Of a stretch of 64,000 bases of DNA, positions 27,828 through 63,725 are shown in pieces (positions within the stretch are counted from its first letter, which is position 1; the number at the start of each line of letters is the position of its first letter). The stretch is from Lota lota. Its lineage: Eukaryota; Chordata; Actinopteri; Gadiformes; Lotidae. The DNA is taken from assembly GCA_026745465.1 (NCBI GenBank), contig JACYXH010000826.1, forward strand, positions 6,804,224 through 6,868,223. The letters run 5' to 3'. Both the position numbers and the translations under genes were made by a program. Under the pieces are notes generated by a model. That model was given only the letters and a program-made list of their open reading frames with translations. It made no database searches and was not told the DNA's origin.

Positions 27828-28886
27828 CTACTCTCCCTTCTCATGGAGGCACGAACGCACACGCTTCCGCACGTAGAAAGCAGTGAGCGCGCTGCAGCAG
27901 GCCGTGAAGATGAAGAGAGCCACCGCGTCGTGCGCCAGGTCGCCATGGAGATTCTCGTAGAGGGGGCGCCGCTCGATGAAGTCTATGCGCAGCGCTTCGA
28001 TCTGCACCAGCGTGCACAGCACCAGGAACACGTGGAAGATCTGGTGGCCCTGGCCGAAGAAGTCGCACTTGCCGGGGAACCATCTCTCCGGGTGTGGGTA
28101 GGAGAAGAAGTAGGCACTGACCAGGAAGAACACCACCTGGTAGCGGTGGTACGCCACGGCTGGGTCGCTGCAGCCCGTCTGGTAGCAGCTGTAGATGCGG
28201 TGGAGCACGGGGCTGATGTCCAGGCAGTAGGCCAGGCCCGAGGGCACCACCTGGAAGAGCTTGTGGGCGAACTTGGGCATGCCGGGGCTGGAGTACTTCC
28301 CGTAGCAGCAGCCGAGGCAGGAGAGCCAGGCAAAGAAGGCGGCGGCGGGGAGGAAGAAGCCGCGCACCCTGCTGTGCCAGTCCCTCTCGATGGCGTAGTA
28401 GAAGTGGGCCAGGGCGCTGCCGTACTGGTACACGGCCACGCCCACGTAGTCCAGGAAGTAGAAGGTGTAGTGGGAGAGCTCGGACTTGGCGGAGAGCAGA
28501 TGGGCGAGCGCGCTGCAGGAGAGGTATGTGAAGGCGGCCAGCAGGACGATGAAGAGGGGCTGAGCGTGGGCGTCGCGCAGGAAGTCCACCGTCTCCGACA
28601 GCTCCTGCCACTTCACCAGGATGATAAGGGCAGCCAGGAGGTGCGTCCACACATTGAGGGCCTCATTGTGCCTCTGGAACAGTGTGAGGAAGTAGTAGCG
28701 CCAGCTCTGGTCGGGCTGCCGGTAGCCGTGGAGGATGTGGGGCTCCCTGAACACCCAGGGCACGTCGGAGGCCTTGACGGTGCACGGCAGGGTGGGGAAG
28801 GCCGACTCCAGCAGCTGGGGGATCTGCCTCAGCTGCTGGGCGTTGATGAACAGGCGACCGATCTGCTCCATCACCACCGTCGCCAT
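27828..28886 (-). CDS. paqr7: Membrane progestin receptor alpha (PAQR7), 352 aa
   Basis: PAQR-family (progestin and adipoQ receptor) multi-pass membrane protein. In fish, mPR-alpha is a cell-surface steroid receptor implicated in rapid progestin signalling during oocyte maturation and in sperm. The coding region is one uninterrupted exon starting MATVVMEQIG and ending CLHEKGE, the usual length for the family. Visible family marks are the N-terminal PWVFRE..I..GYR segment (about residues 43-56), S-x3-H (Ser125, His129), Asp146 in FYFLDYVGV, and GHQIFH (His281, His285). In related receptors these Ser/His/Asp residues line a metal-binding site. Hydrophobic stretches at about 80-93, 109-131, 141-164, 177-194, 212-226, 248-262, 284-298 and 321-338 fit seven to eight membrane helices. 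The frame stays open 30 codons further upstream (to 28976), but the family start and a splice acceptor directly before it favour 28886. GC-rich coding sequence in AT-rich surroundings. Fish can have a and b copies; I cannot tell which this is. Confidence 0.96.
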   Translation of the reverse strand: MATVVMEQIGRLFINAQQLRQIPQLLESAFPTLPCTVKASDVPWVFREPHILHGYRQPDQSWRYYFLTLFQRHNEALNVWTHLLAALIILVKWQELSETVDFLRDAHAQPLFIVLLAAFTYLSCSALAHLLSAKSELSHYTFYFLDYVGVAVYQYGSALAHFYYAIERDWHSRVRGFFLPAAAFFAWLSCLGCCYGKYSSPGMPKFAHKLFQVVPSGLAYCLDISPVLHRIYSCYQTGCSDPAVAYHRYQVVFFLVSAYFFSYPHPERWFPGKCDFFGQGHQIFHVFLVLCTLVQIEALRIDFIERRPLYENLHGDLAHDAVALFIFTACCSALTAFYVRKRVRSCLHEKGE

Positions 28887-33010: not shown

Positions 33011-36000
33011 ATGGGCGCTTGTTTGGCGCTTTGTTCCCTGGCCAGCTGTGTAAGTACATCATTTATCCATCCATTTGTTGTATTGAGTCGGCTCTATTTG
33101 GCATATCAGCTCCCGCATTCAGTAATAATAAATAGCAATGGTTGTCGAATAAGTAAAGCATATCAACCTTAGATGATTGATTGTTAATATCATGTACAAC
33201 ACACGCATACACACGATGCAGGCTGTATTGGTTTCCAAGATGACGGTTCAAACCAAACATGTACATTTCTAAGCTAAACAACCTCAACATATAGACTCAA
33301 TCGTGTATATCGTGGTTTTAATTTAAAGCAATTGCAAATTGGTTTGAGGTGGCATATGACTCATATAACATGATGAGGCTGGGAGTTTGTGCGGTTTGAT
33401 GACTGTTCCTTGTTCCTCTTCCTGCCAGGCCTCCTGTCTGTGCGGGTCAGCGCCCTGTCTTCTGTGCGGCTGCTGCCCTTCCTCCAAAAACTCCACCATC
33501 ACACGCCTGATTTTCTCATTCTTCCTGCTCCTCGGCACCATCGTGTCTGTCATAATGATCCTCCCTGGGATGGAGGAACAGCTTCGAAAAGTGAGGCTCC
33601 TGAATGTCACACATACAACATTATCCAATCAAAGGTGTCACAAGGATTTGCAATGCTTCGCCACATTGTTTCTTGCATGTGCTTTCTGTGACATGATGTG
33701 TTCTACAAATAACAAACTGCATACATATAATTGATAGAGATCTTCTTGAAAATCTTTATTTTAAAGAAATCAGAAAAGTTTAAGCTATTGTTTGATTTCA
33801 ATTTGTTTTTCGTTTGGTAGATACCAGGGTTCTGCGTGGATGGAAACAGAATACCTGGCCTTGATAACCTAGTGGACTGTGATGTCATCCTTGGCTACAA
33901 GTCTGTGTACCGCATGTGTTTTGCCATGACCTGCTTCTTCTTCTTGTTCTCTGCTATTATGATTCAAGTCCGCAGCAGCAAAGACCCTCGTGCTGCTGTC
34001 CAAAATGGGTAAGTAACTGGTAACGACAGATGATTTGATATTTAATATGTCTTTGTTCTGTTGTATGAGAACATATACATATCCACAGCAGTTTGGTTTG
34101 GCCATGTGTGATGTTATAAAATAAAGTTATTATTTTTTGTTTCCTAGATTCTGGTTCTTCAAGTTCCTGATTCTAATTGGGATTACAGTAGGAGCCTTCT
34201 TCATCCCTGGTGGAATGTTTCATACTGGTGCGTTGTTTCTGCTTGACTGCTTCTAATTAAAATAATTGCAGAGCAGTAACGGCAATGCACTTCTGCTTGT
34301 AAAAGGCTTCTTCATCACTTGGACACAAGACACAAGAATATTCTCTACTAGAATGCCATTGTTGTGTCATTTCAGGGCTTCCACATCTATGCCAGATTGT
34401 TGAGTTAAAAATGAAATACAATAGACATGGCTGGCAGTGTTTGTTAATTGTAGCCCCTGTTTGAGCAGATAACGAGATGGGCTGTGATGAATACGTTGTC
34501 TGTTCCACAGTTTGGTTTTACTTTGGAGCAGTGGGATCGTTCATCTTCATCATCATCCAGCTCATTCTCCTCATCGACTTCGCCCATTCCTGGAACAAGG
34601 TGTGGGTGGCGAACGCTGAAGAGGGGGACAATAAGTGCTGGTTTGCAGGTACTCGATTAAAATGAGACATTTTGTGTTTTTTTGTTCTTAAATGTAATAT
34701 ATTACATTACTCTAGAATTACTCTTAGTTGTCTTTACAATTATGTGTTTGCTTGCATCGAGGATAGTGATTTATAAATGTATTTGCAAAGCAGGTAGGTG
34801 TTTAATGCATATGTTTGACCCTTCAGGCTTGCTGTCCTTCACGGTCCTCCACTATGCGCTGGCGTTCACAGCGGTGGTGCTGTTCTACGTGTACTACACC
34901 CAGCCTGACGACTGCACTGAACACAAGGTCTTCATCAGCCTCAACCTCATCTTCTGCGTCATCATCTCTGTCGTCTCCATCCTGCCCAAAGTCCAGGTAC
35001 ACTCACATTCATTCCCTGGTGGGCTTGAATAGGGCTTGAAGTCAGGATGTTTTTCGGGAGCAATAATTTAATGAGGGTCTCCAGATTTTTACTCATAGAT
35101 TTAAATAACAACAATAGTTTGGCTGTTGTTTTTTTACTTTAACAATGCAGATTTGTTTCCAGACCTGGCCTATGAGTTATGGCCCCTGGAACTATCAAGC
35201 TGAGATGTTTGCCCGGATAAGCAAATACATAGTATATATTGTGTATATATATTGCTATGTTTATGCAAAAACAAAATGGCTTCTGTTTATTGTATGCAGA
35301 AATGTATACACCAGCATGAGAGCTCCACCAAAAAGGTACCAGAGCACAAAAGCTTACTTATTTGGTAGAGGAAAAGTATCCGAATTCTTAGCGATGCAAA
35401 GTCCAAAAAGTAATTATATCTGAAAATTTATCCTAACTACTATTAACTACCAGGAAATGCAGTACATTAAAAATTTGCCTTGGACTTTTATAATTTAAAG
35501 TAAGGGAAATATGTCCTGAGTCAGTTGTAACTGAGCATCTAATGTTTTGGCAAGTCATTGTGTATGTGTGTGTGCGTGTCACTTCTCATTATGTTACAGG
35601 AAGCTCAGCCTCACTCTGGTCTACTTCAGGCATCTCTTATCTCACTCTACACCATGTATGTAACTTGGTCTGCAATGACCAACAATCTAAGTGAGTCGCT
35701 GTTTTTTGTGCTCTAATATTGCAACAACAAACAAAGGTGTTGCGTGTTAATTCTGTTTAGTTTCTGTCCGTTATTTTGTGCTGGTGAGTTCACTCCACAA
35801 AGTGTGGGTGAACAGTTGCAGTGTGTGCTAATAATTTGTATATAATGTGTGAAAAAAAGTTTTTTACTATGTTACATTTCTAGATTGATCTCATTTTTTT
35901 TTTTTACCCCTTGTAGGTCATTATTTTGAATAATATGACATAAATATGGTTAATGGTCATAGCACATAATAGCCACTAGAGAACGGTACACTTTGCACAT

Positions 36001-39000
36001 AATTTAATCTGGTGAAAGGAGTTTGCCGGTTTTCATAGACCCCCCGGTTATTGTTGATATTGTCTATGTAAAACACCCATGATTTTTGTTCAACTCACCC
36101 ACTCACTAGTGGGCACTATTAGAAAAAAACGACCAAGCCAGGGCAGTTTTGTGTGCGCTATCTTGTGGTGGACCAAACGAAGAGACAGCTATGGGAGCTG
36201 CTAAACACTAGAATGGATGTCAGTGGCTCGCCAACTGCCCAATTTCAGTGAGTTTATCAGAAATGTCAGATTTACATCTTCACATAGACACTATCAACAA
36301 CTAACCTGGGGTCTTAGGATTTTAATGCCATGTGTAAAGGCACTTTGCCCCTTCTTTTTATTCATTTTTCAAATATTGTAATTAATTTTGTGTGTTTGTG
36401 CATGTGCGCGTGTGTTCAGATCGTAACTGTAACCCCAGCCTGCTGAGTCTGGTGTCCAACGGGAGCGCTGCCCAGCTCGCCACCGGCACCAACCCAGAAC
36501 ACCTGCAGTTGTGGGACGCCCAGAGCGTGGTTGGCCTCGTCATCTTCCTGTTCTGCACGCTCTACGCTAGGTCTGCACCCGAGCCCGTCTGGGCCAGTTA
36601 TAGACAAATTGTAATGTTCACTAACCACTCTCTCCTATTAACTTATTATCTCTCCCCCCCCCCCTTCCCCCAGTATCCTCTCCTCCAGCAACACTCAGGT
36701 GAACTAGCTGATGACTAGTAGTGTTGGAACGTACCCCTAACTCCCCTCTGTCTCCCTCTCTCAGTATCTACTACTCCAGCAACACTCAGGTGAACTAGCT
36801 GATGACTAGTAGTGTTGGAACGTACCCCTAACTCCCCTCTGTCTCCCTCTCTCAGTATCCGCTCCTACAGCAACACTCAGGTGAACTACCTAGTGACTAG
36901 TAGTGTTGGAACGTACTCCTAACTCCCCTCTGTCTCCCTCTCTCAGTATCCGCTCCACCAGCAATACTCACGTGAACTAGCTGATGACTAGTAGTGTTGG
37001 AACGTACCCCTAACTCCCCTCTGTCTCCCTCTCTCAGTATCCGCTCCTCCAGCAACACTCAGGTGAACTAGCTGATGACTAGTAGTGTTGGAACGTACCC
37101 CTAACTCCCCTCTGTCTCCCTCTCTCAGTATCCGCTCCTCCAGCAACACTCAGGTGAACTACCTAGTGACTAGTAGTGTTGGAACGTACTCCTAACTCCC
37201 CTCTGTCTCCCTCTCTCAGTATCCGCTCCACCAGCAATACTCACGTGAACTAGCTGATGACTAGTAGTGTTGGAACGTACCCCTAACTCCCCTCTGTCTC
37301 CCTCTCTCAGTATCCGCTCCTCCAGCAACACTCAGGTGAACTAGCTGATGACTAGTAGTGTTGGAACGTACCCCTAACTCCCCTCTGTCTCCCTCTCTCA
37401 GTATCCGCTCCTCCAGCAACACTCAGGTGAACTACCTAGTGACTAGTAGTGTTGGAACGTACCCCTAACTCCCCTCTGTCTCCCTCTCTCAGTATCCGCT
37501 CCACCAGCAATACTCACGTGAACTAGCTGATGACTAATAGTGTTGGAACGTACTCCTAACTCCCCTCTGTCTCCCTCTCTCAGTATCCGCTCCACCAGCA
37601 ATACTCACGTGAACTAGCTGATGACTAGTAGTGTTGGAACGTACCCCTAACTCCCCTCTGTCTGCATCTCTCAGTATCCTCTCCTCCCAGCAACACTCAT
37701 GTGCACTACCTAGTGACTAGTAGTGTTGGAACATACCCCTAACTCCCCTCTGTCTCCCTCTCTCAGTATCCGCTCCTCCAGCAATACTCAGGTGAACAAG
37801 CTGATGCAGACCGAGGAGGGGGGAGGCTCCGGGGGGGAGGGTGTGGTGGGGGAGGACGGCCTCCTCAGGGCCGTGGACAATGAGGAGGAGGCGGTGTCCT
37901 ACAGCTACTCCTTCTTCCACTTTCACCTCTGCCTCGCCTCCCTCTACATCATGATGACCTTGACCAACTGGTACCAGTGAGTACTCCACCCTGACCTCTG
38001 ACCTGGAGACACCACTGGGGTCCTGACCTCTAATCTACTGGGGACCTGACCTCTGACCTACTGGAGACACTACTGGGGTCCTGACCTCTGACCTACTGGG
38101 GACACTACTGGGGTCCTGACCTCTGACCTACTGGAGACACTACAGTGGTCCTGACCTGCTTGAGACTCTAGGGCTGTCCCCGACTAAGCATTTCCTTAGT
38201 CGACTAAACGCAAACCATCCCAACTAATAGTCAACTATAGTCATATTTTTTTTTCCAGTTGTGGATTTTAATCTGAATCATTGTTCTATTTAGTTTCTAC
38301 ATTTAATTCTAATTATTCTTAAGAATGCAAGAAATACTCCAAAACTGTAAACAAATAGACGGCCCAAATCTCAATGAGGGGGGCCGACTCGTTTTGTAGG
38401 CGTTCTTTTTCAATTGGTGCACCATACAAATCGGCCATAATACCAAACAATTTACATATCGAATGTCAGTTTGAATGTGTATTTTATGCTTGGTTACACC
38501 CACACTGGAGCTTTTTTGACCGGCTTTTTACTGATGTAGAGCTAGCGGGATACGCTTTTATTTTAACGTTACATTCATTCAGGACATTTCGAAACGTGAG
38601 AAGTATCTGTTTTAATTGCGTTTCACTTTGGCTGCTGTTTGGGGCAGGGTAGTTTGTATTTCGCCTCATGTGTAGAAATATTTACCAATCGATGGTTCTA
38701 TATCAGTAACAACCATTTTTGATGTATTGCAACTCTGTAAATATTGCAAGTCTGTAAATATTGCAATACGATATTATTATTATTATTTATTTTTTTGTGC
38801 GATTTTATATTTAGTGTGGTTTAACGTTGGAGTTCTGGTTCTACAGGTCCAGCTCATTTTTATTTTTTTATGAATGTGGTCGAACAGAACATAGTTGATG
38901 GCAATTGACTATTGGCATCAACTAATGTATGAAACTTCACTCTCACTCCTTTGGATTCCACTAAGGACTCAAAATACTTGACCAAATCAGTTGTAGTTGT

Positions 39001-39187
39001 ATTAGTGGTGCCTTTCTTTCTGAGATGTTTCTCTCTGCTTGTCCCCAGGCCAGACACGAGCATCCAGAGCATGAGCAACAGCATGCCGGCTGTGTGGGTG
39101 AAGATGGCGTCCAGCTGGCTCGGCCTGGCCCTCTACCTCTGGACCCTCCTGGCACCGCTCGTCTTCCCGGACCGGGAGTTCAACTGA
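33011..39187 (+). CDS. serinc2: Serine incorporator 2 (SERINC2), 10 coding exons, 455 aa
   Basis: SERINC/TDE1-family multi-pass membrane protein. The family was named for serine incorporation into membrane lipids, and members are now described as lipid scramblases. Exons: 33011-33049, 33429-33590, 33821-34008, 34148-34227, 34511-34648, 34827-34996, 35600-35690, 36420-36570, 37767-37976, 39049-39187. Together they make 1368 nt with no internal stop; introns are GT-AG with phases 0,0,2,1,1,0,1,2,2. The start codon has good context (AACAACATGG), and [13 protein letters not shown] is the SERINC2-type N-terminus, followed by the Cys-rich [10 protein letters not shown] segment. Marks include Y97-RMCFA, NGFWFFKFL at 129-137, DFAHSWN at 179-185, an Asn-Gly-Ser sequon at 303, YSYSFFHF at 385-392 and a Gly/Glu-rich loop at 356-371. 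The usual ten or so hydrophobic helices are present, and length equals the mammalian protein. Oddities: a weak donor (GTCTGC) after exon 8, and twelve decoy copies of the exon 9 acceptor. Confidence 0.95.
34997..36419 (+). other. serinc2: serinc2 introns 6 and 7 (exon 7 at 35600-35690)
   Basis: Intron 6 (34997-35599) and intron 7 (35691-36419) are AT-rich and contain no recognised element. The smaller introns 1-5 (33050-33428, 33591-33820, 34009-34147, 34228-34510, 34649-34826) are likewise unremarkable. Each has a GT donor and a pyrimidine-AG acceptor. Confidence 0.8.
36664..37806 (+). repeat. 91-bp tandem array of duplicated 3' splice site plus exon 9 start
   Basis: Thirteen copies lie in serinc2 intron 8 and exon 9. 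The first base after the AG falls at 36674, 36765, 36856, 36947, 37038, 37129, 37220, 37311, 37402, 37493, 37584, 37675 and 37767 (the genuine exon 9). The period is exactly 91 bp, with a single 92-bp step last. Each unit has CTAAC about 25 nt before the AG (branch-point-like), a CTCCCTCTCTCAG acceptor, then TATCCGCTCC...ACTCAGGTGAAC from the exon and about 50 bp of intron-derived sequence. Most decoys read GTG AAC TAG where exon 9 reads GTG AAC AAG; the others stop slightly later. Units fall into three types (CAGGTGAACTAG, CAGGTGAACTAC, CACGTGAACTAG) that recur in order, giving a 273-bp higher-order repeat. Confidence 0.97.
37993..38158. repeat. 35-bp minisatellite in serinc2 intron 9
   Basis: About five copies of a unit beginning GACCTCTGACCTACTGGAGA and ending CTGGGGTCCT start only 17 bp after the exon 9 donor. 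The second copy is internally deleted. Confidence 0.9.
38169..38250. mobile_element. hAT-like terminal fragment
   Basis: AGGGCTGTCCCCGACTAAG and TTAGTCGACTAAACG match the terminus of a common teleost hAT-type non-autonomous element (GGGCTGTCCC..GACTAA). The opposite inverted terminus was not found before exon 10, so only one end is present. Confidence 0.55.
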
Positions 39188-63054: not shown

Positions 63055-63725
63055 TGCTGTTAGTAAGGAGACGTGTTTAGTGTTAAGTATGCTGTTGGGA
63101 GACTTGTTTAGTGTTAAGTACGCTGTTAGGAGACGTGTTTAGTGTTAAGTACGCTGTTAGGAGACGTGTTTAGTGTTAAGTACGCTGTTAGGAGACGTAT
63201 TTAGTGTTAAGTACGCTGTTAGGAGACGTGTTTAGTGTTAAGTACGCTGTTAGGAGACGTGTTTAGTGTTAAGTACGCTGTTAGGAGACGTGTTTAGTGT
63301 TAAGTACGCTGTTAGGAGACGTGTTTAGTGTTAAGTACGCTGTTAGGAGACGTGTTTAGTGTTAAGTACGCTGTTAGGAGACGTGTTTAGTGTTAAGTAC
63401 GCTGTTAGGAGACGTGTTTAGTGTTAAGTATACTGTTAGCTAGGAGACTTGTTTAGTGTTAAGTATACTGTTAGCTAGGAGACGTGTTTAGTGTTAAGTA
63501 TACTGTTAGCTATGAGACATGTTTAGTGTTAAGTATGCTGTAAGTTAGAAGTGTTTAGTGGGCTGTTGGTTAGGAGATGTGTTTTGTGTGCTTAGTTAGG
63601 AGATGTGTTTAGTGTGCTTAGTTAGGGTTGTGCTTAGACAGGAGGTGTGTTTAGTGTGCTGTTAGATGTGTTTCATATGCTTAGTTAGGATGTGTCTTTA
63701 ATGTGTTTAGTGTGCTGTGAGTTAG
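63055..63725. repeat. 31-bp minisatellite, about 15 regular copies plus decayed edge
   Basis: Units of GTTAGGAGACGTGTTTAGTG + TTAAGTACGCT are nearly identical between about 63110 and 63420. They then diverge (TATACTG, GCTAGGAG insertions) and break down to scattered TTTAGTGTGCT fragments by about 63725. The centre is homogeneous and the right edge decayed, the usual picture for an expanding array. Confidence 0.94.

Follow-up and report, generated by a model that had tools for sequence, protein, structure and literature searches.

Poison exons and other forms of unproductive splicing lead, through the choice of a splice site, to a stop codon and predicted decay of the transcript. They are usually conserved single cassettes with known regulators, unlike the repeat array described here. 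Splice sites can also lie within minisatellites, and the units of the one in the IFI6 (6-16) gene are reportedly 12 bp long. The IFI6 minisatellite provides multiple alternative splice sites for one transcript, and its donor-type units give rise to protein isoforms (Turri 1995, via PMC4526556). The VNTR in intron 18 of ABCA7 includes a real splice site, in this case with a 25-bp unit that repeats a donor; the array opens with the two bases of the exon 18 donor. A unit may stay in the transcript, which shifts the frame with decay predicted, and the array is a human length polymorphism of about 12 to about 427 units with measured splicing effects (PMC5954066). In the potato RdRp gene an intron/exon junction was tandemly duplicated once, and the copied segment included the branch site, the pyrimidine tract and the 3' splice site. 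The 5' site came from a cryptic donor within the exon part, and the intron that resulted was confirmed by 106 RNA reads (PMC4974935).

In a stretch of 64,000 nt of Lota lota DNA (the window), we found a 91-bp minisatellite across the boundary of intron 8 and exon 9 of a Serinc-family gene. Like the ABCA7 array it includes the real splice site, but it repeats a whole acceptor and is known from one assembly. Like the IFI6 minisatellite it offers multiple alternative splice sites for one transcript, with the difference that its units are acceptors leading to predicted stops. It resembles the potato gene in the duplicated elements and in a donor-like motif in the exon part, but there are twelve extra acceptors, intron gain is a candidate only, and all twelve would give stops if the latent donor were unused. 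No acceptor minisatellite of this kind was found among the open-licence papers listed by our literature search, judged by titles and the beginnings of abstracts. As far as this search goes, the repetition of a whole acceptor twelve times in near identity, within a unit that might be an intron-gain cassette, appears to be new.

The gene and its repeat array

The gene (33011..39187; it and all its features given below lie on the plus strand) has 10 coding exons and 455 codons. It is called serinc2 here, a putative name that comes from the first-pass annotation and from familiar sequence features; the family itself is assigned by Pfam. In a profile search exons 8-9 matched PF03348 (Serinc) with an E-value of 4.5e-22 and 79 bits, above the cut-off of 24, and they also matched the solved Serine incorporator 3 (E 1.6e-25). 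The reading frame is intact, with no internal stop over the 10 coding exons, when 37767 is used as the exon 9 acceptor. Exon 8 (36420..36570) ends in the donor TAG/gtctgc, the true exon 9 (37767..37976) comprises 210 nt in frame with a purine-rich body, and exon 10 (39049..39187) is the last coding exon with the normal stop. Intron 8 is 1196 nt long up to the true site and intron 9 is 1072 nt long. Skipping of exon 9 would keep the frame with a loss of 70 codons.

Tandem Repeats Finder reported the array at 36671..37806 with a period of 91, 12.5 copies, 93% matches and a score of 1976, the highest among its 93 rows for the window. Its head-to-tail units fall within the 10-100 bp given for minisatellites in PMC5241972. 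The array holds 13 acceptors of the form CAG/TATC, located at 36674, 36765, 36856, 36947, 37038, 37129, 37220, 37311, 37402, 37493, 37584, 37675 and 37767, with a spacing of 91 bp throughout except for a final gap of 92. With twelve successive copies in register at 91 bp, the array is not due to chance. The real site at 37767 sits inside it as the last copy, the first 40 nt of true exon 9 being the 13th repeat copy, and is the sole acceptor of the 13 that keeps the frame. The repeat across this boundary with 13 acceptors 91 bp apart, as described in the first-pass annotation, is real in the assembly.

Counted from the acceptor, the unit opens with 40 nt that are homologous to the beginning of exon 9 and continues with an intron-like tail of 51 nt, which ends in CCCCTAACTCCCCTCTGTCTCCCTCTCTCAG. 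A branch-like A precedes the exon start by 25 nt, and no AG follows it other than that of the CAG. A CTAAC, a pyrimidine tract and a CAG had been claimed for every copy; 12 of the 13 intron tails do carry this branch-like site, tract and AG, but the tail before decoy 1 is unrelated. Because the unit holds a branch-like site, a pyrimidine tract, CAG and the first 40 exon nt, each round of expansion would have added a complete 3' splice site. The repetition of a complete predicted 3' splice site is established at the level of the assembly.

The unique left part of intron 8 (36571..36673) has its own poly-C tract before decoy acceptor 1. The decoy 1 tail differs from the true tail at 29 of 50 positions, and 95% of 2000 shuffles of the flank scored at least as well in alignment to the unit tail. 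The idea that the left flank is a worn copy of the unit tail was therefore rejected, which means that the array starts with the CAG of decoy 1. One simple duplication fails to account for the 47-nt spacer between the exon-like parts or for the apparent junction at decoy 1. A search with 72 bases across this spacer gave 12 matches among the best candidates scored, all within the array.

Units three apart differed on average by 2.2 positions, compared with 5.6 for neighbours and 6.1 for units two apart. Copies 4 and 7 are identical, as are copies 5 and 8, leaving 10 distinct units among the 12 (copy 12 being compared without its inserted base). The minimum at lag 3 together with the identical copies points to a recent duplication of three-unit blocks. 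In the difference matrix copy 12 was the most different from the others and copy 1 among the least different. Degeneration towards the edges was considered as a sign of age and dropped, as there was no clean gradient and copy 1 was unremarkable.

With the whole array as query, one place was matched in the 575-Mb assembly among the best candidates scored; the search skips simple repeats and covers an assembly of 575.3 Mb. We further read three paralogues in which the start of exon 9 was found (L004, L005 and L006), the weaker matches L008 and L009 stopping short of the exon start. No array was present in the 420-520 nt upstream of exon 9 in these three. The closest paralogue, L004, is 68% identical and has the exon 8 donor CAG/gtatgc.

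Possible competition between decoys and the true acceptor

The twelve acceptors had been described as near-identical to the productive one. This holds for decoy units 2-11 (36765..37674), whose types tend to recur with a period of three, but not for decoys 1 and 12. Over the 29 or 33 nt that precede the exon, units 2-11 equal the true site, so that 10 of 12 decoys share at least 29 nt with it. Decoy unit 1 (36674..36764) has branch-like sites of its own, a CTAAC 50 nt and a TTAAC 33 nt from its exon start, and decoy unit 12 (37675..37766, 92 nt) has two purine changes in the tract and a 1-nt insertion, a C, in the exon part. Between positions -20 and -4 there are 16 pyrimidines out of 17 in decoys 2-11 and the true site, 17 in decoy 1 and 14 in decoy 12, compared with 9-15 in the gene's eight other acceptors. 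Since the upstream sequence is the same, local upstream sequence cannot separate ten of the decoys from the true site, and it is mainly position and downstream context that differ. The locus is a natural test of how a choice is made among equal 3' sites, i.e. whether the one nearest across the intron, the one nearest across the exon or an enhancer-driven one is used.

If exon 9 were extended to a decoy, it would be 302-1303 nt long instead of 210 nt, and each of the 12 predicted readings ends in a stop, after 350 residues in eight decoys, 354 in one and 361 in three. In the eight decoys the stop is an in-frame TAG where the true exon has AAG. Copies 3, 6 and 9 have TAC at that codon, and the frame is ended by the TAA within CTAAC; in decoy 12 the frame is shifted by the inserted base. 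All 12 stops precede the exon 9/10 junction by 256-1269 nt; as a rule, decay is expected where a stop lies over about 50 nt ahead of the final exon junction. Both the stop within or soon after codon 350 and the predicted nonsense-mediated decay geometry, as put forward in the first-pass annotation, are borne out by these readings.

Used from the exon 8 donor, decoy 1 would give an intron of 103 nt and decoy 2 one of 194 nt. In the 210 nt after each site we counted purine-rich enhancer-like hexamers from a general-knowledge list; there were 10 after the true site, 5 after decoy 12, where the 210 nt run into the true exon, and none after decoys 1-11, where most or all of the stretch is array sequence. 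Where 3' sites compete, the upstream one is preferred overall and strongly so in short introns; with long flanking introns this preference is significantly reduced, the 3' data showing a reduction rather than a reversal, and the authors conclude that exon definition favours whichever 3' site lies closest across the exon (PMC9225289). According to the same report, 3' sites separated by more than 12-20 nt are typically chosen when they are first recognized, each with its own tract and branch point. A spliceosome scanning past the decoys had been proposed before, but a simple 5'-to-3' scan is not expected on these grounds for sites 91 nt apart.

We favour, with a probability of roughly 0.6, the explanation that the array is a young minisatellite formed by tandem duplication, in which the true site is mostly favoured by exon definition and some unproductive splicing occurs that is not evolved control. 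The minisatellite would have arisen where intron 8 of this Serinc gene borders exon 9, in a repeat-rich fish genome. The true site would probably still be chosen in most transcripts, as no other acceptor yields an exon that is short, is followed by a donor and has a purine-rich body. Some transcripts might be diverted to stops and decay by decoys, especially by decoy 1 near the exon 8 donor. The net result would be a leak of unproductive splicing that is tolerated and probably varies with copy number. Taking the published rule, the intron and exon lengths and the hexamer counts together, decoy 1 and the true site are expected to be the main contestants. Decoy 1 is likely the most serious competitor; given its 103-nt intron and its 17/17 pyrimidine tract it may win often, which counts against our explanation. 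We expect the true site to prevail in enough transcripts to keep the gene intact.

An RNA hairpin that hides the decoys was also considered after an inverted match (CAACACT and AGTGTTG) was seen by eye. It was rejected, as folding showed nothing, with z-scores from -0.93 to 0.89 for eight of the 12 decoy units and -0.65 for the 91 nt from the true site.

Latent donors and rival readings

Within the exon-like part of the decoys we found a latent donor motif that was absent from the first-pass annotation. It reads CAG/GTGAAC in 7 of the 12 decoys, CAC/GTGAAC in 4 and CAT/GTGCAC in decoy 12, at 12 positions starting with 36698, 36789 and 36880 and ending with 37700. Counted over the nine places of the donor consensus MAG/GTRAGT, CAGGTGAAC matches at seven, compared with five for the real exon 8 donor at 36570, which is the lowest among the gene's 9 donors. 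Seven of nine is the best match of the candidate donor, which lacks a G at +5. CAG/GTGAAC encodes the codons Q-V-N in the exon part; CAGGTG is found in all three paralogous exons, and GTGAAC in L004 and L006, where the examined stretch reaches it.

With the latent donor each unit becomes a potential exon of 25 nt (26 nt in copy 12) followed by a 66-nt intron; in decoy unit 1, for example, the mini-exon would end at CAG/GTGAAC and the mini-intron would extend to decoy acceptor 2. Among the 220 possible sets of three such mini-exons, 165 stay open to the normal stop, namely all those without copy 12, and the 55 that include copy 12 are out of frame by length. Among pairs, 11 of 66 stay open, those including copy 12. 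When copy 1 is used alone the stop would lie 93 nt before the junction, and with copies 1 and 2 together 181 nt before it.

These counts, along with the donor-like motif itself, would be consistent with a chain of mini-exons, i.e. intron gain in which splicing turns the units into exons of 25 nt and introns of 66 nt, with multiple-of-three sets in frame and the rest going to decay. An exon of 25 nt is not easily defined, an intron of 66 nt is short by vertebrate standards, and the missing G at +5 also speaks against use of the latent donor. A precedent is the potato gene, which gained a spliced intron through such a duplication with a cryptic exonic donor (PMC4974935). On balance we regard such a chain as unlikely. 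A dosage rheostat, in which the array is kept because decoy use and decay set the level of Serinc protein and copy number tunes it, seems improbable to a similar degree. It would fit the location of all 12 decoy-extended stops 256-1269 nt ahead of the last junction, and an exon 8 donor at 5/9 of the consensus could make the choice sensitive. The acceptor tails also vary less than the exon-like parts, with variable columns at 5 of 50 positions compared with 12 of 40 (Fisher p 0.028), which points only weakly in this direction as p is 0.072 for copies 3-11 and 0.23 when changes are merged by eye into events. We do not claim selection on the acceptors, although the fewer variable columns in the tails could hint at constraint. 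Much of the sameness is explained without selection by the duplication of three-unit blocks, and the three paralogues do without an array in the 420-520 nt read before exon 9. A combination of both ideas is conceivable, in which expansions of an acceptor ladder each add a 25-nt exon and a 66-nt intron and array length heritably tunes the amount and form of the protein; we consider this rather unlikely. The same doubt applies to its detail that multiple-of-three sets insert in frame at the join of exons 8 and 9 and other sets lead to decay.

The splice sites of the array might instead interact unproductively with the two ends of intron 8 and so keep the intron retained, in the manner of decoy exons. 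Each unit does combine an acceptor with a donor-like site, all within one intron. Retention does not follow automatically from such an arrangement, as VWF exon 44 gave no retention in the short reporters of a published study, and we judge this outcome very improbable. It is also quite doubtful that the array is an artefact in the sense that the copy number in the animal is lower or higher than in the assembly. Tandem repeats are reported to mislead assembly (PMC6868369), and the two pairs of identical copies three units apart are what a mis-assembled duplication would leave. On the other hand, 10 distinct unit sequences occur among the 12, the window is free of N, and the array is located within a 9.4-Mb contig.

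Repeats in the genomic setting

Tandem repeats make up 10.7% of the window. In a 200-kb sample (20 stretches of 10 kb from two contigs, 6072 N included) their share is 7.6%. In Atlantic cod, tandem repeats are described as about three times as dense as in other vertebrates (PMC5241972), and the density measured here would fit a codfish. Gadiformes are also reported to have lost MHC class II (PMC5894186). The locus is also a natural test of the ways in which genomes with many repeats put up with those that fall on splice sites, or turn them to use.

An acceptor-like unit was recognized in 2 of 17 minisatellite rows listed (units of at least 25 bp, at least 4 copies, some rows overlapping, acceptor-like being judged by a rough rule). 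These were the serinc array and a CT-rich 79-bp minisatellite of 6.1 copies at 7359-7840 of L018 on contig C826. Scans of the window with Rfam at the gathering threshold and for tRNA genes gave no match.

About 4 kb upstream of the Serinc gene, on the minus strand, an open frame of 335 residues (27831-28835; part of a stop-to-stop frame of 437 residues) matches Pfam HlyIII with 208.5 bits. We presume that it belongs to a PAQR-type receptor gene. A second tandem repeat was found at 37990-38157, with rows of periods 12, 23, 35 and 58; it starts about 14 nt into intron 9, so that repeats flank exon 9 on both sides. Further downstream the window holds a 31-bp minisatellite at 63066-63560, with 15.5 copies and 92% matches.
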